Source: Verrucomicrobiia bacterium (GTDB lineage Bacteria; Verrucomicrobiota; Verrucomicrobiia; Verrucomicrobiales; DEV007). From it: a stretch of 64,000 nucleotides of DNA. Both the position numbers and the translations under genes were made by a program. The DNA lies in assembly GCA_020439945.1 (NCBI GenBank), contig JAGRPB010000006.1:1-64000 (forward strand), read 5' to 3'. Positions 38,926-62,794 of this stretch are shown here, in pieces; positions within the stretch are counted from its first letter, which is position 1, and every line of letters begins with the position of its first letter. A model generated the notes under the pieces. The model saw only the letters and a program-made list of their open reading frames with translations, was not told the origin of the DNA and did not search any database.

Positions 38926-40815
38926 TCAGGTGCGCCGGCCGAATTTTCGCTCCAGCTCGGCATAACTGATCTGAATCAGCGTCGGACGACCGTGAGGACA
39001 GCAGTAGGGCATCTCGCAGACGAGCAGATCCCGTAGCAGTTTATCCAGCTCCGCCGAATGGAGCGGGTCGTTGGCTTTCACCGCGTGACGACAAACCGTG
39101 GTGGCCACCATGTCCTCGCCCAACCGCATCTTGGAAGTCTGGCGACTCGCCCCGCGCAATTCATCGATGACCTGGTGAATGAAGCGTTCTGGATCGTCGC
39201 TTTTCAGGAAAGTCGGCAGCGCGTCGATCTTCAGCGTGTTGCCGCCGAAGGGTTCCGCCGACACCCCGAGCTTCGCCAAAGTCTCCAGATTCTGCGAGAC
39301 CAGGTCAAAGTCCCGCGGCGCCAGTTCCACCGTCAAAGGCACCAACAGCGCCTGGGTCGGCACGCCCTCGGTTTCCATCCTACGTCGCATTTCCTCGAAC
39401 AGGACCCGTTCGTGGGCCGCATGCTGATCCATCAGCACCAGCCCTTCTTTCCCTTCCAACAGCACGTAAAGTTTTCCCAACACGCCGAGCAGGCGGAAGT
39501 CCTCCGCCTTCGGCGCGGTCTCGATGTCGGGTTCCGCCCTTTCCTCAATTTCTTCAACCGGCGCCTTTTCCGTCGTCTCCGGCGATTCAACAGGGTCAGG
39601 TCGCGGACTCAACCCTCTTTCCTCGGAAACGCTGGAGCTGCTGGAACCCACTTCAATGCCGGGCAGCGAAGGGCGCGGAACGGACGCCAAGTCGCTCCAG
39701 TCTTTTCTCAAGCTCCGTTGCTCGCTCTCAGGAATCAGTTCGTGCTGCTCGGCGCGAGCGGGAACCGGGACTGGCATCGGTTTCTCCGCTCCCGTCAGCC
39801 CCACCCCACTGACCGGGCGTCGCATCTGGCGGGTCAGGGTATCGGACACGGCGGTGATGACCGCGTCGCGGACCGAGTTGCCATCGTGAAATCGCACCTC
39901 GCGCTTGGCCGGGTGAACGTTCACATCGACCGCTCCGGGATCGGTTTCGAGAAAGAGAAAGGTCACCGGATACTGCCCCTTCATCAGCGCGGTGTGATAT
40001 CCCTCGCGGAGGGCATAGGTGAGCATCGCCGCCTCGACCGGCCGACCGTTGAGGAATGTCAGCATCTGCTTGCGATCGGATCGCCCCATGCCCGGCGGCC
40101 CGATGAATCCGCTCACGGTCACGCCATGATGCGTCTGCTTCGGCACCTCGAGCAAACGACCCGCCAGATCGGCGCCGGCCAGGCCGCGAATGCGATCGCG
40201 CCCGTCCTTGGTCGCCGGCAGCTGGAAGACGAGCCGGTCATTGCGCACCAGGGCAAAGCGGACCTCCGGATGCGCCAGCGCCTGCACGCGCACGGTCTGC
40301 TCCAGGTGACTGAACTCCGTGTTCTCGGTGCGAAGGAATTTCCGCCGCGCCGGAATGTTGAAAAACAGCGAGCGCACCTCGATCTGCGTTCCCGGAGGTT
40401 CGCCGCAGTCTTTTACCGCCGCCATCTTCCCGCCGTTGATGAGAACCTCCGTTCCCGTGAGCGCTCCCGGTTCACGGGTGGCGAGACGGAATTTCGACAC
40501 GCTGGCGATGCTGGGCAGCGCTTCGCCGCGAAACCCGAGCGTCCCGATGGCGGCGAGATCGTCCTTGGTTCGGATCTTTGAGGTCGCGTGGCGCTCCACG
40601 CACATGAGCGCATCGTCACGATTCATCCCGCTGCCGTCGTCGACCACGCGGATCAAGGCGATCCCTCCCCGTTGCACCGCGATCTCGATGGTGGAGGCGC
40701 CCGCGTCGAGCGAGTTTTCCACCAATTCCTTCACCACGGAAGCCGGGCGCTCCACGACCTCACCCGCCGCCACTTGGCTGGCGAGCGCGTCGGAGAGAAG
40801 CCGGATTTTGCCCAT
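38926..40815 (-). CDS. mutL: DNA mismatch repair protein MutL, endonuclease type
   Basis: A 629-residue MutL. The N-terminal GHKL ATPase shows ELVENSLDAGAS, DDGSGM and GFRGEALPSIASVS. After a variable linker of about 100 residues the C-terminal dimerisation domain carries DQHAAHERVLFEE, a complete DQHAx2Ex4E metal-binding nuclease motif, plus CRHAVKAND and CPHGRPTLIQ. This MutL nicks DNA itself, so no MutH is needed. The linker includes an in-frame copy of the 31-bp palindromic repeat (39589-39619). ATG at 40815 is the normal start (a TTG lies 9 bases upstream). No mutS is in the window. Confidence 0.96.
   Translation of the reverse strand: MGKIRLLSDALASQVAAGEVVERPASVVKELVENSLDAGASTIEIAVQRGGIALIRVVDDGSGMNRDDALMCVERHATSKIRTKDDLAAIGTLGFRGEALPSIASVSKFRLATREPGALTGTEVLINGGKMAAVKDCGEPPGTQIEVRSLFFNIPARRKFLRTENTEFSHLEQTVRVQALAHPEVRFALVRNDRLVFQLPATKDGRDRIRGLAGADLAGRLLEVPKQTHHGVTVSGFIGPPGMGRSDRKQMLTFLNGRPVEAAMLTYALREGYHTALMKGQYPVTFLFLETDPGAVDVNVHPAKREVRFHDGNSVRDAVITAVSDTLTRQMRRPVSGVGLTGAEKPMPVPVPARAEQHELIPESEQRSLRKDWSDLASVPRPSLPGIEVGSSSSSVSEERGLSPRPDPVESPETTEKAPVEEIEERAEPDIETAPKAEDFRLLGVLGKLYVLLEGKEGLVLMDQHAAHERVLFEEMRRRMETEGVPTQALLVPLTVELAPRDFDLVSQNLETLAKLGVSAEPFGGNTLKIDALPTFLKSDDPERFIHQVIDELRGASRQTSKMRLGEDMVATTVCRHAVKANDPLHSAELDKLLRDLLVCEMPYCCPHGRPTLIQISYAELERKFGRRT
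39589..39619. repeat. 31-bp palindromic dispersed repeat, copy C (inside mutL linker)
   Basis: AACAGGGT and ACCCTCTT flank a 15-nt loop CAGGTCGCGGACTCA. It is in frame and encodes ERGLSPRPDPVE in the disordered MutL linker, where extra residues are tolerated. Confidence 0.65.
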
Positions 40816-44903: not shown

Positions 44904-45524
44904 ATGAAACGCTACCTCGTACACCGCGCCTCGGACTCCACGCCTGAACTCGACTGGAGCGTTGCTGAGACTCTCACCGATTTCACCTTTCCCTGGGAAG
45001 ACCGCGAGCCATCGCCAACGGAGTTTCGGGCTCTGTGGACGGAAAAGGCGCTGCACTTTCGCTTCGATTGCGTCGATGACGATCTCGTCCTCGCCGAGGG
45101 AAAAGACGACGCCGAGAAAGTCATCGGTTCCGACCGGGTCGAGCTCTTCCTCGCCCCGGATTTGGACCTGAAGCCCTACCATGGCCTCGAGATGGACCCC
45201 CGCGGCGCCGTGCTCGATTACGCCGCCCGCTATCATCGCGAATTCGACTGGGACTGGCAATGCGACGGTCTTTCCCTCCAGACCGGGATCGATGGTGATC
45301 GCTACCACGTAATCGGTTCGATTCCCCTCTCGACACTCTTGTCGCTCGGGGTCCTCAGACCCGACTCCAGGGAATTCTTCGCCGGCGTCTACCGAGCCGA
45401 GTTCTCGCACCGCCCCGACGGCGAAATCCACCAAGGCTGGATGGCCTGGATCGACCCAAAAACCGAGAAGCCCGACTTCCACGTTCCCGCGTCATTCGGA
45501 GTGTTTGAAATGGCTGGTTTTTAA
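44904..45524 (+). CDS. CBM9-like carbohydrate-binding protein
   Basis: A 206-residue protein without signal peptide. The pattern WTEKALHFRFDCVDDDL, GSDRVELFLAPDLDLKPYHGLEMDPRGAVLDY and GSIPLSTLLSLG followed by WMAWIDPKTEKPDFHVPASFG matches the DOMON-like CBM9 fold that binds sugar chain ends. As it is cytoplasmic by prediction, its ligand would be an internal sugar, or export is by another route. Remarkably, a degenerate copy of its last third occurs at 56690-56815, beyond the giant gene. Confidence 0.72.
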   Translation: MKRYLVHRASDSTPELDWSVAETLTDFTFPWEDREPSPTEFRALWTEKALHFRFDCVDDDLVLAEGKDDAEKVIGSDRVELFLAPDLDLKPYHGLEMDPRGAVLDYAARYHREFDWDWQCDGLSLQTGIDGDRYHVIGSIPLSTLLSLGVLRPDSREFFAGVYRAEFSHRPDGEIHQGWMAWIDPKTEKPDFHVPASFGVFEMAGF

Positions 45525-45721
45525 CCAACTTGCGGGCATTTTGCATCAATACTGATTAAGTTAAATTTTGAGTGGACACGACCTGCTCGATCGGTCAGCC
45601 TGTTCTGCAAATACCCGCAAAACCGTCATTCCGGATTCCGTGGGAGAAATGGCGGAAATGACCGACCGACAAAATCACCTTGGCTCGACGAGACAGTTTG
45701 TTGCCGAAGAAAACCCTTTCC

Positions 45722-48700
45722 ATGTTTTTGCCTCCCACTCCGGCAATCCAGCGTGCTGGAAAGCCCCCATTTGCAGGCCGGTGGGTGCCTTTGATGATGG
45801 CAACCATGGCTTTGGCCGGCGGCGCCCGCATTTCCGATGCGACCGAGTTCGAGGCGACGTTTTCCACAAAATCTGATATCCCCATCACCTCCGCCGGTTT
45901 CGATGGCACCGGCCACATGGTTGATCTGGCCCTCGGTTTCGCCCCTGCCCCGGGCACCACGCTGACGGTGGTCAAGAACACGGAGCTGGGATTCATCCAG
46001 GGAGAATTCGACAATCTCGCCAACGGTCAGCCGGTCGATCTGGATTTCGACGGACGGATCTATCAATTCGTGGCGTGGTACTACGGAGGCAGCGGCAACG
46101 ATCTGGTGCTGGCTCCGCGCTACACCGGGCTCGCCGCCTGGGGACACAACAACTGGGGGCAACTCGGGGACAATACCACGACAGGCAGATTGGCGCCCGT
46201 TTCGGTGGATCAAAGCGGCGTCCTCGACGGTCTGTCACTTGTCGCCATCTCCACCGGGGAGCTCCACAGCCTCGGTCTCTGCTCCGATGGCTCCATCGTT
46301 GCTTGGGGATACAACGACTACGGCCAGCTCGGCGACAACTCCACAACGCACCGACATGTCCCGGTGCTCACAGACCAGAGCGGTGTCCTCGCCGGGAAGA
46401 CCGTGGTGGCGATCTCCGCCGGAAATGACCACAACCTCGCCCTCTGCTCGGATGGAACCCTCGTGGCCTGGGGACAAAACGACTACGGCCAACTCGGAGA
46501 CGGTTCCACGACGGACCGACTCGCCCCCGTGCTCGTGGACCAAAACGGCGCGCTCGCCGGGAAATCCATCATCGCCATCGAGGCCTGCCTCTATCACAGC
46601 GTCGTTCTGTGTTCCGATGGCACCCTCGTGGCCTGGGGCAGGAATGATGATGGCCAACTCGGGGACAACTCCAACACGGACCGCATCGTTCCAGGGCTCG
46701 TCGATCAGAGCGGCGTGCTGGCTGGCAGATCAGTCGTCGCCCTGAGCTCAGGCAATAGCCACAATCTCGTTCTCTGTTCCGACGGCACCATCGCCGGATG
46801 GGGGGGCAACTCTCGCGGCCATCTCGGCGACGACAGTACCATAGACCGCACCTCCCCTGTCCTCGTCGATCAAAGCGGCGTCCTGCTGGGCAAAAACGTG
46901 GTTTCCATCTCCACCGCTTCCTATACTTCGTTCGCCCTATGCGCCGACGGCACCCTCGCCGCCTGGGGATCCAATCACTTTGGTGTCCTGGGATACGGCT
47001 ACCTTTCGGAACAACATGTTCCGGTGCTGGTCGATCGGAGTGGAGTCCTGGCCGGAAAGACGGTCATATCCGTGGAAGGTGGGGGATTTCACAGCCTGGC
47101 TCTCTGTGCCGACGGCACTCTCGCTGCTTGGGGATACAACTTCTTCGGACAAGTCGGCGACAATTCCGGCATCGACCGCTACGTCCCCGTTCTCGTCGAT
47201 CGAGGCGGCATTCTCTCCGGCAAGACGGTGATCGGACTCTCCGGGGAATACGTTCATTCCTTGGCGCTCTTCGCGGCAGTTCCGGACATCGCGGTGGAGC
47301 ACCCGGTCGGCATCGAACTCACCGGCGGTAACGACTTCCTCGATTTCGACACCGACGTCCTGGTCGGCTCCACGGTGGAAAAGACCGTGACGATCCGGAA
47401 CATCGGCGGAGCGCCTCTCCGTGATGTGGCGATCCACATCGACGGCGTCGATGCCGCGGATTTCGGTATCGCCGTCAGCCCACCGACGGAGATCGCACCC
47501 CGGCGAACGGCTGGCTTCACGGTGACCTTCACCCCTTCGTCAACCGGGGCGAAGACGGCAGCGCTCCACCTCACGAGCAACGATGACGACGAGAACCCAT
47601 TCGATATCGACCTCACAGGCGCGGGCGATCTCCCGGAGATCGGCGTGGAGCACCCCGCTAACTTCGATCTCACCGACGGTAGCGCCTCCATCGACTTCGG
47701 GGAGGTCACCGTGGATGGGGTCGCCATCGAGAGGATTTTCTCCGTGCGAAATTCGGGCGGCGCCAAACTCATCGACCTGGCGCTCTCCATCGATGGCACC
47801 GACGCGGGAGATTTCCACGTCCTCAGTCCCTCGGATGCCGAGGTGGCGCCCGGTGCCTCGACCACCTTTGCGGTGGCCTTCTCGCCCACCTCTCCCGGGG
47901 CAAAGACGGCCACCCTCCATCTCGCGAACAACGACCCCGACGAGGCCCCTTTCGACATAGACCTCCTCGGCAGTCGGGCGATCGGCAATGTCCTCTCGGC
48001 CACTTACCAGACCGGTTCTGAAGCACCACTCACGACGGCCGGTTTCACCGCGACCGGCAATACCGCGGAACTCACGATAAATTTCGCCCCTCCACCCGGA
48101 ACGACCCTGACATTGGTAAATAACACGAAGCCGGGATTCATCGAGGGAGAGTTCGCCAATCTCGCCAATGGTCAACCGGTCGATCTCGACTTCGGCGGCG
48201 TCTCCTACCCGTTTGTCGCCTGGTATTACGGCGGTGACGGAAACGATCTGGAACTTCGCTGGCGCCTCACCGGACTGGCGGCCTGGGGAAGCAACGACCG
48301 AGGTCAACTCGGTGACGGGACGAGAACCAATCGGCGTTCCCCCAACAACGTCGATCTCTCGGGGGTCCTGGCGGGAAAAACCGTCGTCCAGGTCTCGGCG
48401 GGAAGGGAACACACCCTCGCGCTGTGCTCCGACGGGTCCGTCGTCTCCTGGGGAAGCAACGGCGCCCGTCAGTTGGGAGACTATTCGACTTCGGACCGAT
48501 GGACCCCAGTTCTTGTGAACACCGAAGACGGCGTCAGCGCCTTGCACGGCAAAACGGTCGTCCAGATCGCGGCGGGAAACCTTTTCAGTCTCGCGCTCTG
48601 CTCGGATGGTTCGATCGCTGCCTGGGGACACAACAATTCAGGTCAGCTCGGCACGGGTACCGAGCTCTATGCCCTTGTACCAGCGCCCTTGGCCGTCGAT

Positions 48701-51700
48701 CAATCAGGAGTTCTGCTGGGGAAAAGAGTGGTTCGAATCGAAGCGGGTTCCTCCCATTCTCTCGCTCTCTGCGACGATGGAACGGTCGCCGCCTGGGGCA
48801 GTAACACGAGTGGTCAACTCGGAGATAATCTCGCAACCTACACTAAAAGTCCGCTTCCTGTGCTGGTCGATACCGCCGAAGGTTCCAGTGCCCTCCACGG
48901 AAAACTCGTAGTTTCCATAGCCAGCGGAGGAGGATCGACCCTGGCCTTGTGCGCGGACGGCACCGTCGCGGCATGGGGTACCAACTACTATGGGCAGTTG
49001 GGAACTGGAACCGTCACCAACGAGCCTTCGCCTGTGCTGGTGGACATGGCGAGCGAAGCCAGTGCCCTCCGGGGCAAGAAGGTCGTGTCACTCTCGATGT
49101 CGGGGAGCCACGGTCTCGCCCTTTGCTCGGATGACACCCTCTCGGCCTGGGGCAGGAACGACTACGGACAGCTCGGCGACAACCAGATCGGCACTTCCAA
49201 CATCCTCTTTCCCATTCCTGTCCTGCAGACCCCACCCAGCTCCCTTGCCGGAAAGTCGGTCACCACGGTTTCGAGTGGCTCTCTGGCCAGTTTCGCCCTC
49301 TGTGCGGATGGGTCCGTTTCTTCATGGGGACACAATTTGTCCGGGGTCCTGGGCCAGGCTGGAAACGGGGACTCGAACATCTTCCGGTTCCCCTCCGCCA
49401 TTGACGATCTCCAGGGAAGAAGCGCCCTGGCGGGAGTCCGGGTGATCGAGATCGGGCGAACCAACGAGTCCAATGACCACACCATCGTCATCTATGCCGG
49501 AGCCCCGGATATCACCGTCAAGGACTCTGGAGACGACTATCTTCTCACCGGGAATTCCACCCTGACTTTCGGGCAACAGGTCCCCGTGGGAGATCACGAT
49601 GACCTGTCGATCACCGTGCGGAATGAAGGAATCGTCGACCTGACCGATCTCGACATTGCCTTCATCGGGAACCACCCCGGCGATTTCTCCATCGTCGACC
49701 CGCTTCCTTCCACCCTGGCTCCAGGCGATAGCGCCCAAGTAACGATACGATTCTCTCCCAACTGGGACGGAACCCGGACAGCAACCCTTTCCATTCACTC
49801 GAACGACTTCGATACCCCGGAGTTTGTCATCGATCTGGAGGGAGGCGGCACCCTTCCCAGGATCGAAGTCCTGGACGATAGCGGCACCGCGATGGCGGAC
49901 GGCCAGCCCCTCGATTTTGGATCACCAGCCCTCGCGGGAGCCCGATCGGAACAAGTGCTGACAATTCGCAATGCCGGAGAATCCGATCTCCTGATTTCCC
50001 AGTTCTCGATCGAAGGAGCGGACGCCACTTCCTTCAGCGTCCTCGACTCGTGGGCGGTCCCGATTCCTCCCAGCGGCAGTCGAATGATCGCTCTCCAATT
50101 TTCCCCAACCGGAGGTGACCCGAAAACCGCAACGCTTCGGATCGGCAGCAATGCCAAGAACGACGCCCTTTTCGAAATCGGACTGGCAGGGACCGGGGCA
50201 TTGGAAACCCAACTCGAAGCCCGACTGCTGGCATCGGGCTCTCCCCCGCTCTCTTCGCCGGGGTTCGACGCCTCGGGAAAGACGGTGAATCTGACTCTCG
50301 AATTCGAACCGCCGCCCGGCTCGAGGATCCCGATCATCGAGAACACCGGCATCGGACCGATCCAGGGCAGTTTCTCCAACCTGACAAACGGCCAGCCGGT
50401 CGATCTGGCGTTTGGAGGGAGGACCTACTCGTTCATCGCCTGGTATCATGGGGGTGACGGTAACGACCTCGTCCTCCTCTGGCGGGAGTCCGGACTGGCC
50501 GTCTGGGGCAGCAACAACCAAGGTCAACTCGGCCTCGGAAACCCCGGGAACCGGAAGACCCCTGATCTGGTCGAAGACGACGGCTTGCTGGCGGGAAAAA
50601 CGATCGTCCAGGCGGCTACCGGATACGCGCACAGCCTGATCCTCTGCTCGGATGGAACTGTCTTGGCGTTCGGTGACAACAATTACGGACAATTGGGCGA
50701 CGGAACCAACTCCGACCGCGACGTGCCTGTCATGGTTGACTTCGGAAGCGAATTCGCCGGCAAACAGGCCATCGCCGTCACCGCCGGCGGTTACCACAGC
50801 CTCGCCCTCTTTTCCGATGGCAGCCTCGCCGCATGGGGATTGAACGGTTCGGGACAACTCGGAATCGGAACGACGGAGAACAGCGTCGTTCCGGTTCTCA
50901 TCGATCCCGCCCTCGGCGCACTTGCCGGCCACCATGTCATCCTGGTGGACGCGGGTTTCAATCATACCATGGCGCTGTGCGAGGATGGATCGGTGAAGGG
51001 TTGGGGGTCCAACTTCGTGGGAACCCTTGGCGATGGCACCTTCGATTACCGGAGTGTTCCGATCTCGATCGATGGGGGCGACCTGGCCGGCCGACGAATC
51101 AAAAGGCTCGTGACCGGGAACGATCATGCGCTCGCCCTCGACACGAACGGTCTTCTCGTCGCCTGGGGGCGGAATCACCATGGCCAGTTGGGAAGCGGAG
51201 ACACCAACTCCCCTGGTTACGTCCCGATGACCGTCGATGCGAGCGGTGTCTTGGCCGGAAAAGAAATCGCGACCATCTCCGCCGGGAACGCATGCAATCT
51301 GGTCACCACCGGGGACGGCGGGATGGTCTCGTGGGGAGACAATGCTCAAGGAAAACTCGGTGATGGCACCGAGCTTGATCGATACTCACCGGTTGAGATC
51401 GCCGCCAACGGCATTCTCGCCGGGAAGATCGCCGTTGCTCCCAGTATCGGAAACACCGCCAGCATGGCCATCTGCTCCGATGGATCCGTCGCGACCTGGG
51501 GTACCAGCTTCGCCGGCGCACTGGGTGCCGGCGACGTGACCCAGAGAACTCTGCCGGGCCCGCTGCTGGATCCCGTCCACCTGCTCGACAACGCATTTCC
51601 AAAATACTCGGAACCCACCCCCAAGGGTGATCATCGGCTCATGGTCATCCCGCTTGTCGCCCAACTGGAAATCCGGGATCAAAACGGCGATCTCCTGACC

Positions 51701-54700
51701 AGCGGAGAATCCACGATCGATTACGGTTCCATGGCTCTGTCGGGAACGGCGAAAACTTTGAACCTGTCGATTCGCAACACGGGCACAAGAAGCCTGTCCG
51801 GTATTCAGCTCGCGATCACGGGCCCGGATGCGGCCGAGTTCCAGGTAAATACTCCTCCAGCCACGACCCTCGGAGTAGGTGAAAGTTCGTCCATGACGGT
51901 TCGGTTCTCCCCCAGCGACGGTGAGGCCAAGTCCGCGGTGTTGCGCCTCGATTCCAATGAGATGTCCCTGGATCCGGTCGAAATCGCAATCATCGGGAAC
52001 GGCTCCCATTCCCAGCTGCTCACCGCGACCTATCCCGATGAACATGCGATTCCCCTGTCTACCGAGAATCTCACGCTCACCAGTCAGACGGTGGATCTCA
52101 GCCTGAACTACGCTCCGTCAGCGGGAACCATTCTCACGGTGGTTGAAAACTCTGGCACGCAATTCATCCAGGGAGAATTCGCCAACCTCGCCAATGGTCA
52201 ATCGGTCGATCTCGAGTTCGAGGGCCTTTCCTACCCGTTTGTGGCCTGGTACTACGGAGGTGATGGCAACGACCTGGTCCTGTGGTGGCGCGACACGGTG
52301 GTGGGTGCGTTTGGGATCAACTACGATGGAGAATTCGGGAACAATGAGATCGAGGATCGTTTTGGACACGCGCCTCCCACTGTCCCGAGACCCACCGATC
52401 CGTCTCCCCCGCCTCCCAAACAGTTCCTCGTCAATCAGGACGCCGGACTCAGTGCCCTGCACGGGAAAACGGTGATCGCGGTGGAGAACAGCACGTCCTT
52501 CAGTCTGGCACTCTCTTCCGATGGCTCGTTGGCGGCCTGGGGAAAGAATGATGTCGGCCAGCTTGGTGACGGCTCTCTCGAATCCCGGCTCGTTCCTGTG
52601 GCGGTCGAAACCGGTGGCGTCCTGGCGGGAAAAACGGTCGTTTCGGTCGTGACCGGAAACCGGCATTGCCTGGCGCTCTGCTCGGACGGAACCCTGGCAG
52701 CGTGGGGAAGCAATGAATTCGGCCAACTCGGAAATGGAACCGGCGTGTCCAGCAGTGTGCCGGTGCAAGTCGATCAGAGCGGTGTCCTTGCGGGAAAAAG
52801 CGTCGTCGCCATCGCCGCAGCATCGCTCCACAACCTGGTCCTGTGCTCGGATGGCACCTTGGTGGCCTGGGGCGGAAATTACTATGGCCAATTGGGCAAT
52901 GGGAATCTCGACGATCAATCGCTTCCCGTGGCGGTGGATCAAACCGGCGTGCTGGCGGGAAAAACGATCGCCAGGATCGCCGTCGGCGGAGGCAACCAGT
53001 TCACCTTCTGGAGGAGTGGCTTTTCTTTCGCTCTCTGCACGGACGGCAGTATCGCCAGTTGGGGAGCGAACTGCGAGGGGCAACTCGGAATCAACAGTGC
53101 CGATGGAAGGCAGGTGTCATTGATTGCCCGGGCTACCCCGACACTGGTCAATCGGGACGAGGGAGTGAGCGCCCTCTTCGACAAAACCCCAATCGAGATT
53201 ACCGCTGGTGCGGCTCACGCTCTGGCCCTTTGCAGCGACGGAACTCTGGTAGCCTGGGGAGACAACGAAGGGTGGCAAATGGGCGACGGTTCGCTCACGA
53301 CTATCCCTCCCTACGGCAAATTGGCTCCAGCCCGGGTGAGTCGTGACGCCGGAGTCAGCTACCTCTTCGACCACGAAGTGTCCAAAATCGGAGCGGGATT
53401 CGTCTCCGGGCGGGTCCTATGCACGGATGGCACATTTGCTTCCTGGGGAGGCGAAGTCCTGGGAAAAGAAGAAGAAACCTACGTTCCCGCCCCGCTTTCC
53501 GACAACGGAGCCGTCGCCGGGCACTATGTCATGGGCATCGATGCCAACGGATCGGACGCATCGCACGCTCTCACGATCGTCGCGGCGGCACCAGAAATTG
53601 ATGTGGCGACTCAGGAGGGAACCCGACTTACCAACGGTACGGGAACGATCCAATTCGAAGATATCGTCATCCAAGGAGCCATCGACGATCAGAACCTCTT
53701 GATTGGAAACACCGGCTACCAGGCTCTTACCCAATTCGCCATCGAGTTCGCTGGCCCGAATGCTTCTGATTTCAGCATCGTGACTGATCTGCCCACCGCG
53801 ATGAATTTCGGAGACATTGCCACCTTGGGAATTCGATTCGATCCCGTCCCGGGAGAACTGGGTCTCCGGGAAGCAATCCTGCGAATCTTCAGCAGCGATC
53901 TGGATGACCGCCCCTTTGAAGTAGCACTCAACGGCATGGCCAAGTCAGGGGCGCACGCTGAATTGGGAGCGGCCGTCGAAATCGATTTGAGCTCAATCGC
54001 CCTCGGCCCCGGTGAACAGCTTCGAGTCGTAGGGCTGCCGCCAGGGCTAACGTTTGAAGCAGATCCCATTCCCCGAGTGGTGGGCACCGCCTTCGGCCCT
54101 GAACGCGTTGGCGGGGTCCGTATCCTGATCATTTCCGAAGGAAAAGTAATTCGATCGATCCCCCTGGAACTGTCCGTTTCCCCGCATCGCCTCTCGAATT
54201 CCTACGAAGTCCTGCTCGAGGACGCCGGACTGCCGGTCGGAAAACTCAAACTTCGAATCAACCCTCCTAATCCACGCAGACCGTCACCGATATACACCGC
54301 CGTCCTCCAACTGGCGGATGCGCCGCGCCGCGTGAGCCGAGGCATGCTCGATGTCCTGGATGGGGAATCCCAGACGCTCTCGATCCCCTTTCCCGCCATG
54401 GGTAACGCCTTTCCCGAATTCGCGATCGACCTGCTGCTGGACCCCGATTCCGATCTGGTCTCCGGAGCAGCCACCAGTCCGGATTCAGAGATCACGGCCC
54501 GCGGATTCCGCTTGCTCGAACCAGGGCGATGCCCAAGATCAGCTCCCCGATTTACCTTGGGATTATCGCCCGAATCAAACGGCGACCGCGTATCGGTCCC
54601 TGCCGGCTTTGGCTACGCACGCGGTAGCATCAATGCCCGCGCCTTGGTGCGCTTGGCTGGGCGTCTTGGCGATTTTCAACCCATTCAGACTGCCCTGTGC

Positions 54701-56644
54701 CTGTCGGCGACCAACCAGGCTGTAATATTCGAGACCCCCTACCGCGACCGCCAATCCGTGGTTGGGGGAATCATCGACTTCAGTGAAATGGAGTTCCTTG
54801 GCAGAGAAGAAGTCACCGAAGTTGCCGATTCGGGTCTCCAATGGACCAAGCAACCTGATTTCCGCGAAAGAGCCTACCCCAATGGATTCGGGCCGATTCC
54901 GCTGACACCCGAAGTCAACGGCTGGATTCCGGAATTCGCACAGGAAGGTCTCTCAAACGCACTGGGTCTCACGTTCGCCTCCATTGAGTCCGCTTTCGTT
55001 GCTCCGCCTCAGGGTAATTTCCCGGATCTCCTGCGAATGGAAACCGACTTCCGAGTTTTGTCCGTTTCTCCGGAGGATTCCATTCCCCTGACCGCCCGTC
55101 TTTCTCCCGCGAATGGCGAATTCCGGGGGCTCATGCGCCTTCCTTCCCCGGGCAGCCAATACCGGGTTCATGGCATTGTGATCCAGGGTGGACTGGACGA
55201 TCCCCTGATCGGGCAGGGACTCGTGAGAATCCCGATCGTCGGGGACAAACCCGGAGCTTTCGAAACTGCTGGCATACAGTTGGCTGCGACCGCCGATCCG
55301 GGTGGCCACTTGTATCGAGTTGGCGACTCCGTCAATATCGACCTTGGCGCCTTCACTCCCGGACCCGGGCAAACCCTGAAAGTACTGGGATTGCCCGTGG
55401 GGTTGGAATTGCAGGACGGCCCGCCTCCAAGGATCACGGGAACCGTGCTGGGTCCGGTGAGCAAAGGCGGAGTCATCATCCAGATCCGCGAGGGAACCCA
55501 CCTGGTCCAGAGAACGCCGCTTAAAATGGTCGTCGAGCCCTACCCGTTCGCTGGAAACTACGAGTTGCAGTTCTCCGGGAACCCTCCGTCTCGGATTCGG
55601 CTTAGTATCCATCCACCGACGACGGCTTCACCCGAAGCGTCCTATACCGCGGTGCTGAACCAGATCGGCAGAGAGAGCCGCAGGATTCGAGGAACGCTAA
55701 ACAATCCAGCTTCGCTTTACCTGACCTTCCCAGCGGAGGGCGATATCCCATCGAATGCCTACTACCTGAATCTCTCGGGAGAAGAGACCGGATTGATCTA
55801 CTGGGCTCTGAACGTTCAACCCAATCCACCCACGGTGGTTGGCTACCGACTCGCTGAGAACGGACACACTCCCTGGGGTAGTCCCACGTTAACGATGGCC
55901 TTTCCTCCCGAGGCTCCAGGCGATCAGACTACAATTCCCGCCGGGATCGGCTTTGCCCGAGGTCGAATGAATGGCCAAGGACGCATCCCGATTCTGGGTC
56001 GGTTTGGGGACGCCCAGCGCTTCAGCTCCGTCCTTTCGCTGTCGCCAACCCATCAAGCCTTTTTCTGGTCGACTCCCTACGAATCCAACCAAGCCTCTTA
56101 TTGCATCGGAACGGTTCAGTTCCCCGATCTGCCGACCGCTGACCAGGTACGGACCGACAACCTGCTTTCGGTGGGTTTGAAATGGTATCGAGAAGCGGAC
56201 TCCGAGGCGCTCTCCTATCCCGATGGATTCGGTCCGCTGAATCTGCAGCCATCCTCGAGTTTCTGGATCCCTACCCACAACGCCCAGTCGCTGGCGGAGT
56301 CACTTGGTTTGAACCATCGTGACATCTTTGTCCGAGCCCCAGAGACGATTCATGATAAGCAGAAATTCCCGAGCCTACTCAGCCTGCGAAACAACCACCG
56401 AATGATTCCTCTGATGCCCGAGGATGCCGCGCCATTCTGGGCTCGCGCCAACCGGGCATGGGGCACCTTCTCGGGAAGGTTTCTGCCTCCCGCTGATCAC
56501 CCGTGGAGCCATTTTGAAGGGGTATTTCTCCAGGACGCGGCCTTCGGTTCTTTGATCGGTCAGGGATTGATCAAGGTCCCTGTCGAGTCGTCCGAAAGGC
56601 CATTGGGTTCGTTTGAGACCACCGCTATCGAACTGGAAAACTGA
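45722..56644 (+). CDS. Giant secreted protein: four seven-repeat RCC1 propellers, ASH domains and two C-terminal modules
   Basis: About 3640 residues. A signal-peptide-like stretch (WVPLMMATMALAGG) leads four similar cassettes starting near 45846, 47986, 50199 and 52007. Each has a header (QGEFxNLxNGQxVDLxFxG, FxAWYYGGDGNDLVL), then seven RCC1 repeats of about 53 residues (AWGxNxxGQLGDG..., VLAGKTVV, HSLALCSDGT) and one or two ASH/choice-of-anchor D beta-sandwiches (NIGG, PxxTxFxVTFxPSSTGxKTAxLHLxSND). That makes 28 RCC1 repeats, exactly seven per cassette, which is one full propeller each. The C-terminal 900 residues hold two copies of a module (PGxQLxVxGLPxGL, GFARGxxxxxG) starting near 53980 and 55290. 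No membrane anchor or sorting signal is seen at the C-terminus (TTAIELEN). ATG at 45722 is chosen; a TTG lies 14 codons upstream. Probably an adhesin-like or matrix protein; ligand unknown. Confidence 0.88.
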   Translation: MFLPPTPAIQRAGKPPFAGRWVPLMMATMALAGGARISDATEFEATFSTKSDIPITSAGFDGTGHMVDLALGFAPAPGTTLTVVKNTELGFIQGEFDNLANGQPVDLDFDGRIYQFVAWYYGGSGNDLVLAPRYTGLAAWGHNNWGQLGDNTTTGRLAPVSVDQSGVLDGLSLVAISTGELHSLGLCSDGSIVAWGYNDYGQLGDNSTTHRHVPVLTDQSGVLAGKTVVAISAGNDHNLALCSDGTLVAWGQNDYGQLGDGSTTDRLAPVLVDQNGALAGKSIIAIEACLYHSVVLCSDGTLVAWGRNDDGQLGDNSNTDRIVPGLVDQSGVLAGRSVVALSSGNSHNLVLCSDGTIAGWGGNSRGHLGDDSTIDRTSPVLVDQSGVLLGKNVVSISTASYTSFALCADGTLAAWGSNHFGVLGYGYLSEQHVPVLVDRSGVLAGKTVISVEGGGFHSLALCADGTLAAWGYNFFGQVGDNSGIDRYVPVLVDRGGILSGKTVIGLSGEYVHSLALFAAVPDIAVEHPVGIELTGGNDFLDFDTDVLVGSTVEKTVTIRNIGGAPLRDVAIHIDGVDAADFGIAVSPPTEIAPRRTAGFTVTFTPSSTGAKTAALHLTSNDDDENPFDIDLTGAGDLPEIGVEHPANFDLTDGSASIDFGEVTVDGVAIERIFSVRNSGGAKLIDLALSIDGTDAGDFHVLSPSDAEVAPGASTTFAVAFSPTSPGAKTATLHLANNDPDEAPFDIDLLGSRAIGNVLSATYQTGSEAPLTTAGFTATGNTAELTINFAPPPGTTLTLVNNTKPGFIEGEFANLANGQPVDLDFGGVSYPFVAWYYGGDGNDLELRWRLTGLAAWGSNDRGQLGDGTRTNRRSPNNVDLSGVLAGKTVVQVSAGREHTLALCSDGSVVSWGSNGARQLGDYSTSDRWTPVLVNTEDGVSALHGKTVVQIAAGNLFSLALCSDGSIAAWGHNNSGQLGTGTELYALVPAPLAVDQSGVLLGKRVVRIEAGSSHSLALCDDGTVAAWGSNTSGQLGDNLATYTKSPLPVLVDTAEGSSALHGKLVVSIASGGGSTLALCADGTVAAWGTNYYGQLGTGTVTNEPSPVLVDMASEASALRGKKVVSLSMSGSHGLALCSDDTLSAWGRNDYGQLGDNQIGTSNILFPIPVLQTPPSSLAGKSVTTVSSGSLASFALCADGSVSSWGHNLSGVLGQAGNGDSNIFRFPSAIDDLQGRSALAGVRVIEIGRTNESNDHTIVIYAGAPDITVKDSGDDYLLTGNSTLTFGQQVPVGDHDDLSITVRNEGIVDLTDLDIAFIGNHPGDFSIVDPLPSTLAPGDSAQVTIRFSPNWDGTRTATLSIHSNDFDTPEFVIDLEGGGTLPRIEVLDDSGTAMADGQPLDFGSPALAGARSEQVLTIRNAGESDLLISQFSIEGADATSFSVLDSWAVPIPPSGSRMIALQFSPTGGDPKTATLRIGSNAKNDALFEIGLAGTGALETQLEARLLASGSPPLSSPGFDASGKTVNLTLEFEPPPGSRIPIIENTGIGPIQGSFSNLTNGQPVDLAFGGRTYSFIAWYHGGDGNDLVLLWRESGLAVWGSNNQGQLGLGNPGNRKTPDLVEDDGLLAGKTIVQAATGYAHSLILCSDGTVLAFGDNNYGQLGDGTNSDRDVPVMVDFGSEFAGKQAIAVTAGGYHSLALFSDGSLAAWGLNGSGQLGIGTTENSVVPVLIDPALGALAGHHVILVDAGFNHTMALCEDGSVKGWGSNFVGTLGDGTFDYRSVPISIDGGDLAGRRIKRLVTGNDHALALDTNGLLVAWGRNHHGQLGSGDTNSPGYVPMTVDASGVLAGKEIATISAGNACNLVTTGDGGMVSWGDNAQGKLGDGTELDRYSPVEIAANGILAGKIAVAPSIGNTASMAICSDGSVATWGTSFAGALGAGDVTQRTLPGPLLDPVHLLDNAFPKYSEPTPKGDHRLMVIPLVAQLEIRDQNGDLLTSGESTIDYGSMALSGTAKTLNLSIRNTGTRSLSGIQLAITGPDAAEFQVNTPPATTLGVGESSSMTVRFSPSDGEAKSAVLRLDSNEMSLDPVEIAIIGNGSHSQLLTATYPDEHAIPLSTENLTLTSQTVDLSLNYAPSAGTILTVVENSGTQFIQGEFANLANGQSVDLEFEGLSYPFVAWYYGGDGNDLVLWWRDTVVGAFGINYDGEFGNNEIEDRFGHAPPTVPRPTDPSPPPPKQFLVNQDAGLSALHGKTVIAVENSTSFSLALSSDGSLAAWGKNDVGQLGDGSLESRLVPVAVETGGVLAGKTVVSVVTGNRHCLALCSDGTLAAWGSNEFGQLGNGTGVSSSVPVQVDQSGVLAGKSVVAIAAASLHNLVLCSDGTLVAWGGNYYGQLGNGNLDDQSLPVAVDQTGVLAGKTIARIAVGGGNQFTFWRSGFSFALCTDGSIASWGANCEGQLGINSADGRQVSLIARATPTLVNRDEGVSALFDKTPIEITAGAAHALALCSDGTLVAWGDNEGWQMGDGSLTTIPPYGKLAPARVSRDAGVSYLFDHEVSKIGAGFVSGRVLCTDGTFASWGGEVLGKEEETYVPAPLSDNGAVAGHYVMGIDANGSDASHALTIVAAAPEIDVATQEGTRLTNGTGTIQFEDIVIQGAIDDQNLLIGNTGYQALTQFAIEFAGPNASDFSIVTDLPTAMNFGDIATLGIRFDPVPGELGLREAILRIFSSDLDDRPFEVALNGMAKSGAHAELGAAVEIDLSSIALGPGEQLRVVGLPPGLTFEADPIPRVVGTAFGPERVGGVRILIISEGKVIRSIPLELSVSPHRLSNSYEVLLEDAGLPVGKLKLRINPPNPRRPSPIYTAVLQLADAPRRVSRGMLDVLDGESQTLSIPFPAMGNAFPEFAIDLLLDPDSDLVSGAATSPDSEITARGFRLLEPGRCPRSAPRFTLGLSPESNGDRVSVPAGFGYARGSINARALVRLAGRLGDFQPIQTALCLSATNQAVIFETPYRDRQSVVGGIIDFSEMEFLGREEVTEVADSGLQWTKQPDFRERAYPNGFGPIPLTPEVNGWIPEFAQEGLSNALGLTFASIESAFVAPPQGNFPDLLRMETDFRVLSVSPEDSIPLTARLSPANGEFRGLMRLPSPGSQYRVHGIVIQGGLDDPLIGQGLVRIPIVGDKPGAFETAGIQLAATADPGGHLYRVGDSVNIDLGAFTPGPGQTLKVLGLPVGLELQDGPPPRITGTVLGPVSKGGVIIQIREGTHLVQRTPLKMVVEPYPFAGNYELQFSGNPPSRIRLSIHPPTTASPEASYTAVLNQIGRESRRIRGTLNNPASLYLTFPAEGDIPSNAYYLNLSGEETGLIYWALNVQPNPPTVVGYRLAENGHTPWGSPTLTMAFPPEAPGDQTTIPAGIGFARGRMNGQGRIPILGRFGDAQRFSSVLSLSPTHQAFFWSTPYESNQASYCIGTVQFPDLPTADQVRTDNLLSVGLKWYREADSEALSYPDGFGPLNLQPSSSFWIPTHNAQSLAESLGLNHRDIFVRAPETIHDKQKFPSLLSLRNNHRMIPLMPEDAAPFWARANRAWGTFSGRFLPPADHPWSHFEGVFLQDAAFGSLIGQGLIKVPVESSERPLGSFETTAIELEN

Positions 56645-56689
56645 AAAAACGCCGAGCCGAGGCGAACCTGAAGAATGGTTCACCGAACC

Positions 56690-56815
56690 CTTCCGCATCG
56701 AGTTTTCCCAACGTCCGACCGGTGAAATCCACCAAGACTTGGATCGCTTGAGTCGATCCACGAACCGAGAAACCCGGTTTCCACGTGTCAACTTAGTACG
56801 GTGTGTTTGAGTTGA
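56690..56815 (+). pseudogene. Degenerate 3'-end remnant of the CBM9-like gene
   Basis: This 126-bp segment aligns with the last part of the gene at 44904-45524. Shared features are GAAATCCACCAAG, CGAGAA-CCCG and TTTCCACGT; the peptide RIEFSQRPTGEIHQ mirrors RAEFSHRPDGEIHQ. The frame breaks after that, so it is a dead copy. It lies on the other side of the giant gene, in the same orientation. Confidence 0.7.
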
Positions 56816-56852
56816 GCTAAAAAACGCACCCAAAAGGCTAGTCAATCCACTG

Positions 56853-60479: not shown

Positions 60480-62794
60480 AGAATCACTACCCCGGCCTGC
60501 TCATTTTCACCGACGGCACTGACGACTGCGGGCTTCCCGCTCCGATCCACCAGGTCAGCCGCCGCGGCGCACTGCCAGGCGATGGCCGCGCCCATGCCTT
60601 CGCCGAGCAAGCGTCCGAGGTTCACTCGCTTTCCTTTAAAATCCGCCCAGGCGGCCTCTTCGTCGGCATCGTCGCGACTGGCGCGAGTGAACAGGGTTGA
60701 GTCGGCGACCTTACCCTGTTGAGTCTCGGCTTTTTCAGCGACTCGGCGGATCAAATCGCCTCGCGGATGGGCGTTGGTATAAAGCTCGGGACCGATCAGC
60801 GAATCCAGCGAAACACCTGCCTCACCGCCCCGCTCCAGATAGAGCGCGGCAGCGCCCTCGGCGTAGACGGTTTCGGAACCGAAGAGTTGGTAGGCCTCGG
60901 CGCAGAGCCAGTCGAATTCCTCGCCTCCGACGACGATGACACCGTCGCAGCGATTTTCCTCCAGCCAGCGTGCGGCAATTTCCATTGCGCTGAGAAACTG
61001 GGAAGAGTCGCCGACGATGGTGTAGTTGATCGCGTGACAACCGAGCAGCGAGCTGAGATGACTGGCGGGCGCGTTGTAGACCGTTTCGGGAAACAGGATG
61101 GGACTGGCCAGCGCGGGATCCCGCAAGGCCTCGCCGTAGAAACGGGAGCTGTAATTCACGCAACCGTTCACGTAGGCATAGACGACGCCCAGCCGTATCT
61201 CGCCGGATTTCACTGCTTCGAGCCTCGCCTCGCCGATCGCTTCCAAGGCGGCACCGACGCTGAATCGCGCGATGGGACTGGCGCGGCGGAGGCGGGGGTC
61301 GCGGAGAAAGGGCAACTTTTCCGTCGGTCTGGGCACGCGCCTCACAAGGAGCGGTCGAGACTCGCGTCCTTCGCGGGTGAAAATCTCGGGTTCGGCCAGA
61401 GATTCGGGAGATTCGATCGCTTCCACCAGCGACGCCATCCCCCAGCCCGCCGGAGTCACCGCACCCCAGCCGCTGATACGGATTTTTCCGATCGCCGTCT
61501 TCGTATCCTCGAAAGGGATCGTGACAGCTCGCGTTTCCTCGAACTCGGAGAAAATCAGCGTGGCATTGGCGCCGCCAAAGCCGAAGGAATTGGTCAGGAC
61601 ATTGCGAACCTCGGCATCGCGCGGTTCGCGAACGAGATCAAAGGTGCAGACCTCATCGGGTGTTTCGACGGTGGTTGTCGGAGGCAGAAAATTCTCCCGC
61701 AGCGCCATCAGGGCAATCACGGCCTCGACTGCGCCAGCGCCGCCGAGCAGGTGCCCGATGCTGGCCTTGGTGCTGCTGACTCGGATTTTTTCGACATCGG
61801 TCCCCGCCCAGCGCTGGATCGCTCGACCTTCGGCGACATCATTGAGCGGCGTGCCGGTTCCGTGGGAATTCAGGTAGTCGATCTGGTCGGGCCGCAGTCC
61901 GGCCCCGCGACAGGCCTCCGACATCGCGCGGAGAGCGGCATCGCCCTCGGGATGCGGCTGAGTGAGATGATGCGAATCGGTCGATGCGCCGTAGCCGACC
62001 ACTTCGGCGAGAATCTCCGCGCCACGCGCCCGGGCGGACTCGAGCGATTCCAGCGCCAGCATGGCCGCGCCTTCACCGAGCGCGAGTCCGTCGCGATGCG
62101 CATCGAACGGGCGCGGTGGAACATGGGGCGTCAGCGCCTGGAGTGAATCGAATCCCGCAAACACCAGCTTGGCGAGGGCATCGTAGCCGCCGGCAAAAGC
62201 GCGTTGGTTTTCACCGCGACGGATCAGCGAGGTGGCGTGACCGATGGCGTTGGCGCCGCTGGCACAGGCGTTGGCGATGATGGTGACCGGCCCGGTGAAA
62301 TCGAGCGCGTTGGCGAGATGGATGGCCTGGCGATGGGTCTGGTAGTTCACCGCCCGCACCGCCTGACCGTGCCGGGTTTCCGGGTGCTGGCTGGCTTGGC
62401 GAAAATAGGACTCGCCCAGTTCCATGGCACCGGCGGAGGTGCCGAGACAAAGCGGGATGGGCTCGGCGCGCTCGCGGTCGCTCCACCCAGCGTCGGCCCA
62501 CGCTTCGGTGCCGGCATGAATCAGCATGCGCGTGGCCCGATCAAGACGGGAAATCTGACGAGCCGTCAGCGCATTTTCCGGTAACCCGATCGGCAAGGTC
62601 AGTTCGCCGGCCTGACTGACGCGTTGTCCACTGGTATCGAAAAGCGTCACCGGCCGGAACGCCAATCGCCCGGCGCGGAATCCGTCCACGTTTTCCCGCC
62701 AGCCCAACCCCATGGACGTGATGATCCCGGCTCCGGTGATGACAACGCGGCGGGATTCGGGGTAGTTTGAAGTGACGGCAAACGGATACGGCAT
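60458..62794 (-). CDS. Fused tandem beta-ketoacyl synthase (KS plus degenerate KS/chain-length-factor-like)
   Basis: A 778-residue two-domain condensing enzyme. The N-terminal half is a complete FabF-type KS: nucleophile Cys177 in NACASGANAIG, His311 in NSHGTGTPLND and Lys343/His348 in TKASIGHLLGG. The second half (from about residue 435, RISGWGAVTPAG) has a KS-like fold, but the Cys position reads GDSSQFLSAM, so the cysteine is replaced by Ser and neighbours are changed; this resembles a chain-length factor. The two are normally separate genes. It leads a minus-strand operon with FabG, ACP and flavoprotein. An in-frame 31-bp repeat lies near the C-terminus (60690-60720). ATG at 62794 is the start. 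Confidence 0.88.
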   Translation of the reverse strand: MPYPFAVTSNYPESRRVVITGAGIITSMGLGWRENVDGFRAGRLAFRPVTLFDTSGQRVSQAGELTLPIGLPENALTARQISRLDRATRMLIHAGTEAWADAGWSDRERAEPIPLCLGTSAGAMELGESYFRQASQHPETRHGQAVRAVNYQTHRQAIHLANALDFTGPVTIIANACASGANAIGHATSLIRRGENQRAFAGGYDALAKLVFAGFDSLQALTPHVPPRPFDAHRDGLALGEGAAMLALESLESARARGAEILAEVVGYGASTDSHHLTQPHPEGDAALRAMSEACRGAGLRPDQIDYLNSHGTGTPLNDVAEGRAIQRWAGTDVEKIRVSSTKASIGHLLGGAGAVEAVIALMALRENFLPPTTTVETPDEVCTFDLVREPRDAEVRNVLTNSFGFGGANATLIFSEFEETRAVTIPFEDTKTAIGKIRISGWGAVTPAGWGMASLVEAIESPESLAEPEIFTREGRESRPLLVRRVPRPTEKLPFLRDPRLRRASPIARFSVGAALEAIGEARLEAVKSGEIRLGVVYAYVNGCVNYSSRFYGEALRDPALASPILFPETVYNAPASHLSSLLGCHAINYTIVGDSSQFLSAMEIAARWLEENRCDGVIVVGGEEFDWLCAEAYQLFGSETVYAEGAAALYLERGGEAGVSLDSLIGPELYTNAHPRGDLIRRVAEKAETQQGKVADSTLFTRASRDDADEEAAWADFKGKRVNLGRLLGEGMGAAIAWQCAAAADLVDRSGKPAVVSAVGENEQAGVVILTANGRE
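60690..60720. repeat. 31-bp palindromic dispersed repeat, copy D (inside KS gene)
   Basis: AACAGGGT and ACCCTGTT flank a 15-nt loop. It is in frame in the second KS domain and encodes the stretch QQGKVADSTLF. Confidence 0.65.

Follow-up and report, generated by a model that had tools for sequence, protein, structure and literature searches.

A giant Verrucomicrobiia protein with four predicted seven-bladed RCC1 propellers belongs to a family in which the number of propellers varies

Introduction

Does the very long gene that follows a CBM9-like gene in this Verrucomicrobiia bacterium encode a chain of complete RCC1 propellers and, if so, how might such a chain have arisen and what could it do? 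A first-pass annotation, made by eye, had counted seven copies of the repeat AWGxNxxGQLG in each of four cassettes, 28 in all, and had proposed growth by duplication of whole propeller units and a role in multivalent binding at the cell surface. It also called bacterial RCC1 proteins of this size little studied. The remark is fair for the Verrucomicrobia clade: our literature search yielded nothing on proteins of the [header-RCC1x7-ASH]n type, and none of the papers searched describes a header-RCC1-ASH family.

Results

The gene and its product

The gene is a single intact open frame of 3654 codons (45680-56644, + strand) within the 64,000-nucleotide stretch of DNA analysed here, referred to as the window. 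The frame opens with a TTG, upstream of the interval 45722-56644 originally assigned to the gene; position 45722 is an in-frame ATG ahead of a plausible Sec signal peptide and is the likely start. To judge by its sequence, the encoded protein (predicted mass 381 kDa, pI 4.6) is probably secreted. No other RCC1 gene was found in the source genome. The size of this four-propeller protein is not exceptional, since related RCC1 frames run to 4213 residues in one case and at least 6742 in another. Its modules are listed in Table 1.

Table 1. Modules of the RCC1 gene and flanks of the insertion (window coordinates)
Feature	Coordinates	Strand	Evidence
3' end of upstream CBM9-like gene, left flank of the insertion	45314..45513	+	
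Probable Sec signal peptide (MFLPPTPAIQRAGKPPFAGRWVPLMMATMALAGGARISDA)	45722..45841	+	Read by eye from translation
Header module 1, ~95 aa	45848..46132	+	Four-header alignment; no Pfam/NCBIfam/PDB match
Propeller 1, seven RCC1 blades of ~55 aa	46124..47287	+	HMM count; Pfam RCC1
Two ASH / choice-of-anchor D sandwiches	47285..47971	+	Pfam ASH, NCBIfam NF012200, own HMM
Header module 2	47993..48277	+	Four-header alignment
Propeller 2, seven RCC1 blades	48269..49483	+	HMM count; Pfam
Two ASH sandwiches	49508..50191	+	Pfam, NCBIfam, own HMM
Header module 3	50213..50494	+	Four-header alignment
Propeller 3, seven RCC1 blades	50489..51655	+	HMM; AlphaFold2 model, 28 strands in 7 blades; Foldseek to UVR8/RCC1
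One ASH sandwich	51665..51997	+	NCBIfam, own HMM, model
Header module 4	52016..52300	+	Four-header alignment
Propeller 4, seven blades, first with proline-rich insertion, last degenerate	52295..53602	+	HMM (weakest E 7e-12); model
One ASH sandwich	53594..53935	+	NCBIfam, own HMM, model
C-terminal module copy 1	53948..55285	+	Copy alignment; relatives at C-termini of other ORFs
C-terminal module copy 2, extreme C-terminus	55286..56641	+	35% identity to copy 1; relatives in other ORFs; low-confidence model
Diverged partial copy of CBM9-gene 3' end, right flank of the insertion	56673..56850	+	

Each cassette carries seven blades

A motif scan of the protein found 28 blade cores, whose starts fall into four groups of seven (residues 154-484, 869-1216, 1609-1940 and 2211-2589). 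A 55-residue HMM built from these cores re-found 28 domains (E 6e-31 to 7e-12), the best score among 20 shuffled copies of the protein being 3.5 bits; as a means of counting, this HMM is circular, being made from the cores that it counts. Pfam, which is independent of the window protein, reports 23 RCC1, 21 RCC1_2 and 7 WD40_RLD stretches, with PF00415 scoring 598 bits (cut-off 21.7) and PF25390 917.7 bits (cut-off 150). Motif scan, HMM and Pfam all support the initial tally of four times seven, and the repeat-detection check set beforehand, in which unequal numbers would have counted against the proposal, returned seven blades in every cassette. Mean blade identity within cassettes 1 to 4 is 54.7, 44.1, 34.0 and 34.8%. 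Tandem Repeats Finder reported no tandem array, the repeats being too diverged. The most degenerate blades lie in cassettes 3 and 4, and the last blade of cassette 4, the most degenerate of all, is missed by a family-wide HMM and visible in the structure model.

Separate structure prediction of the cassettes had been suggested as a check. Our AlphaFold2 model (21 aligned rows; mean pLDDT 82.7) begins with propeller 3 and ends with the last ASH domain, 1155 residues in all; its pTM of 0.57 is low, so that the relative placement of the beads is not predicted. According to the strand list, read by eye, propeller 3 has seven four-stranded blades; propeller 4 also has seven, including the degenerate last one, with a few strands short or weak. 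The best Foldseek match in the PDB is UVR8 (TM 0.88 by target length), followed by HERC2, HERC1, RPGR and RCC1 (0.84). On this model, propellers 3 and 4 are predicted to close into rings of seven blades that resemble UVR8 and RCC1. The blades of propellers 1 and 2 score by sequence as well as or better than those of the two modelled propellers. The proposal of four complete propellers is borne out by the blade count for all four and by the model for two of them.

Headers, sandwiches and C-terminal modules

As first proposed, the same header (about 95 amino acids) precedes each propeller: in an alignment of the four copies, headers 2-4 share 53-65% amino-acid identity with header 1. Neither Pfam nor NCBIfam has a match for the header, and the best hit among PDB sequences reached only E 0.7. 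ASH-type sandwiches follow each propeller, again as proposed, in uneven numbers (2, 2, 1, 1; six in all); the choice-of-anchor D / ASH family NF012200 scores 255 bits against a cut-off of 45, over six stretches.

The C-terminal module announced by the first-pass annotation is indeed present twice (about 440-450 residues each), the two copies being just 35% identical. Searches of Pfam and NCBIfam with these modules gave zero matches, and the structure model of the module is of low confidence (pLDDT 45). By sequence search the module occurs in 15 of 96 related genomes and, where hits in other ORFs are near full length, it ends 0-7 residues from the stop. Seven of the nine module-bearing ORFs that were scanned carry choice-of-anchor I, one carries choice-of-anchor Q with Chlam_PMP repeats and one has nothing recognizable; lamin-tail, 5'-nucleotidase and InlB-like repeats are also represented among the nine. 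More broadly, the ~440-residue module closes many large Verrucomicrobia ORFs (L113-L127) with differing N-terminal domains. In the window gene it comes after choice-of-anchor D domains. The NCBI name of the choice-of-anchor families implies a position beside differing anchors; given these partners and the naming, we read the module as an exported or anchoring part.

Known C-terminal sorting devices were sought in the protein. The PEP-CTERM end (PEP motif, hydrophobic stretch, basic end) is absent, the chain ending in ...GSFETTAIELEN, yet the source genome encodes an exosortase. Pfam and NCBIfam scans showed no autotransporter (type V) C-terminal β-barrel, and NCBIfam reported no type IX C-terminal domain. 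A search of the source genome for SprA gave no match, and the same search matched in no control genome either.

A Verrucomicrobia family with a variable number of cassettes

Scanning species genomes with the header alignment yielded 17 loci, every one of them in Verrucomicrobia; members include Brevifollis gellanilyticus, a Prosthecobacter MAG and Chthoniobacteraceae MAGs. RCC1 matches as such occur in 24 of 96 related genomes, and those in phage records are distant only (best about 34% identity). Read with the same HMMs, the loci encode proteins with one to at least six headers: L016 and L061 have four cassettes each, L064 has five, L056 at least five and L071 six, and one locus (L039) has a header without following blades. 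The L071 frame (2-20227) is open over no fewer than 6742 codons and contains RCC1 blades beyond those of its six cassettes with headers; as it extends past the retrieved 20-kb stretch on either side, its size is a lower bound. Cassette number, ASH number and the C-terminal module differ among members, some of which have a different tail. In cassettes that no contig or frame end truncates, seven blades were detected 47 times, six blades nine times and more than seven never. In each of the nine with six, a stretch of 50 residues or more is unassigned, which leaves room for a degenerate blade like the one in cassette 4 of the window gene. By this sequence count, cassette number varies in the family and the blades per ring are held at seven. 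The window gene shares with its relatives both the cassette type and the strong preference for seven blades. The count of four propellers is real, and a widespread family ranging from one to at least six cassettes shows that the design is not unique.

A cysteine occupies the 'ALCSDG' position in 228 of 315 readable blades of the header family, whereas Lys or Arg prevails at this position in RCC1 proteins that lack the header and come from related genomes. In propeller 1 the cysteines fall at residues 201, 256, 311, 366, 421 and 476 (46280-47107), the same position being used in the other propellers; a ring of the header family has about six, regularly spaced.

An accessory gene at a variable site

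The RCC1 gene sits between the CBM9-like gene (44904-45524) and a further gene run, among whose products are a halogenase-type flavoprotein and a ketoacyl synthase. In three genomes of the same genus the flanks of the insertion lie about 0.9, 2.5 and 4.1 kb apart, with other content and no RCC1 match between them. This spacing indicates that the site is variable and that the RCC1 gene is an accessory insertion. Elsewhere in the window, two short segments at about 39583-39619 and 60690-60725 have dozens of matches in the congeners G001 and G002 and represent a small dispersed repeat.

In one congener a contig (L057, 5.3 kb, both ends open) carries a homologue with 90% identity to residues 1174-2949 and modules in collinear order over 1774 amino acids. 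Compared with window positions 49197-54525, identity along L057 (1-5324) is a mosaic of about 70 to 100%: it peaks at 100% in parts of propeller 3 and is lowest, at about 70%, in a block that takes in the last ASH domain and the beginning of the C-terminal module. Between the same two genomes, flanking genes share 74-83% identity. Such a mosaic fits segment exchange between species; the coverage of L057 is 0.68, which makes a misbinned or chimeric contig possible. The pair gives a dN/dS of 0.19, a value that rests on one short, low-coverage contig of mosaic identity. Within propellers 3 and 4 (50489-53602), 14 of 20 amino-acid changes between the homologues fall at blade positions 17-27, the loop after GQLGD, counting over the first 30 blade positions; the numbers are small and come from one mosaic pair.

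How the cassettes arose

In header and propeller trees the cassettes mostly cluster by gene lineage, which indicates that they are related as units by common descent. Those of the window gene are interspersed with cassettes from two other Verrucomicrobiales genomes, a pattern that supports duplications partly older than the splits from these lineages. The suggested duplication of whole propellers is not demonstrated. Matching blades by position across cassettes gave an overall excess of 1.4 points (permutation p 0.03), which was gone for interior blades 2-6 (44.4% identity between equivalent blades vs 44.8% between non-equivalent ones). Family-wide, cassette pairs within a protein show a positional excess of about 1 point, as against 19 to 54 points for the closest orthologous pairs. 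The data are equally compatible with old copying of whole propellers and later erasure of the register, with copying at a time when the blades were still alike, and with amplification at the level of blades, the general propeller route according to Pereira and Lupas (PMC9218822).

Dating the duplications by synonymous divergence, as had been suggested, proved unworkable because synonymous sites approach saturation: pS is 0.53-0.71 for header pairs and 0.65-0.71 for propeller pairs. Where residues are identical, their codons mostly agree at close to the rate that codon usage predicts (0.38). A recent gene conversion within cassette 1 was considered and set aside, its codon identity (0.465) being only slightly in excess of that expectation.

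Discussion

The protein described here shares with RCC1, UVR8 and BLIP-II the repeat motif and seven blades per ring, and its predicted rings match those of UVR8 and RCC1; it differs in having four rings in one secreted-looking chain, with header and ASH modules between them. A parallel for several rings in a chain is WRAP, a highly repetitive β-propeller whose 14 blades form two seven-bladed rings (PMC9218822). There, too, the blade count is a multiple of seven; the window protein belongs to another propeller lineage, however, and has other domains between its rings. Highly repetitive propellers are defined by a median blade identity above 60% (PMC9218822), and the within-cassette values found here, which are means and not medians, do not exceed about 55%. 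With the choice-of-anchor D proteins of NF012200 the window protein has its six ASH domains in common; unlike them, it has no PEP-CTERM or other recognized sorting motif and ends in a ~450-residue module without a family name. What is new is the combination, and the modules that lack a family name, rather than the fold.

What might such a protein do? We favor, with some reserve, the view that it is a secreted bead-string binder, its rings acting as multivalent attachers and its C-terminus holding it to the surface. The signal peptide would direct passage across the inner membrane, after which each cassette would fold into a closed ring of seven RCC1 blades with a header in front and one or two ASH sandwiches behind, the latter perhaps serving as spacers. 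Four divergent rings could offer four related but different binding faces and so allow multivalent or multi-specific attachment to extracellular proteins or glycans. The C-terminal module, common to other large secreted-looking proteins of the order, would be the export or surface-holding part. The gene is one accessory member of a Verrucomicrobia family with varying cassette number. Multivalent binding at the surface, the role first proposed for this gene, is thus plausible from the signal peptide, the domain types and the shared C-terminal module. A secreted location would also argue against the role of RCC1 proper, that of a Ran exchange factor engaged in nucleotide exchange.

Other readings deserve consideration. 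The well-known bacterial member of the RCC1/BLIP-II group is a secreted binder (PMC9218822), and the window protein has no recognized anchor at its C-terminus; one could picture a soluble inhibitor or scavenger that is released like BLIP-II, each propeller blocking a target protein. We regard this as rather unlikely, as attachment accords better with the size of the chain, with its ASH spacers and with a C-terminal module that choice-of-anchor proteins also carry. Less likely still is a structural filler or matrix protein, whose propellers would give bulk and length and bind no specific ligand. The freedom of cassette number to vary from one to at least six, and the lack of the gene at this site in three congeners, are what such a protein might lead one to expect; the retention of seven blades per ring speaks against it, as does the constraint on amino-acid change relative to synonymous change in the comparison with the single mosaic, low-coverage contig L057. 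Finally, a repetitive gene in a draft genome of 474 contigs raises the suspicion that repeats were collapsed or multiplied during metagenome assembly. This we consider very improbable: at about 60-80% identity and without a tandem array, the DNA repeats are too diverged to confuse an assembler, the frame is intact, the same-genus contig keeps an identical module order, and the four-cassette relatives L016 and L061 come from independent genomes.

The more unusual part of the protein, compared with the propeller design, is its C-terminal module, which is reused and lacks a family name. One might tentatively imagine it to be an undescribed Verrucomicrobia signal for secretion or surface anchoring, a single tail for many unrelated passengers, among them RCC1 propellers, choice-of-anchor D, I and Q proteins, 5'-nucleotidase and lamin-tail proteins. 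It would then play the part taken elsewhere by the type IX C-terminal domain or by PEP-CTERM, a possibility that we think less likely than not. The module may reveal the means by which giant proteins are placed on the verrucomicrobial surface. The propellers, for their part, show plainly that ring number per chain can change in evolution while blade number per ring is held, making the seven-blade closure rule measurable across a bacterial phylum.
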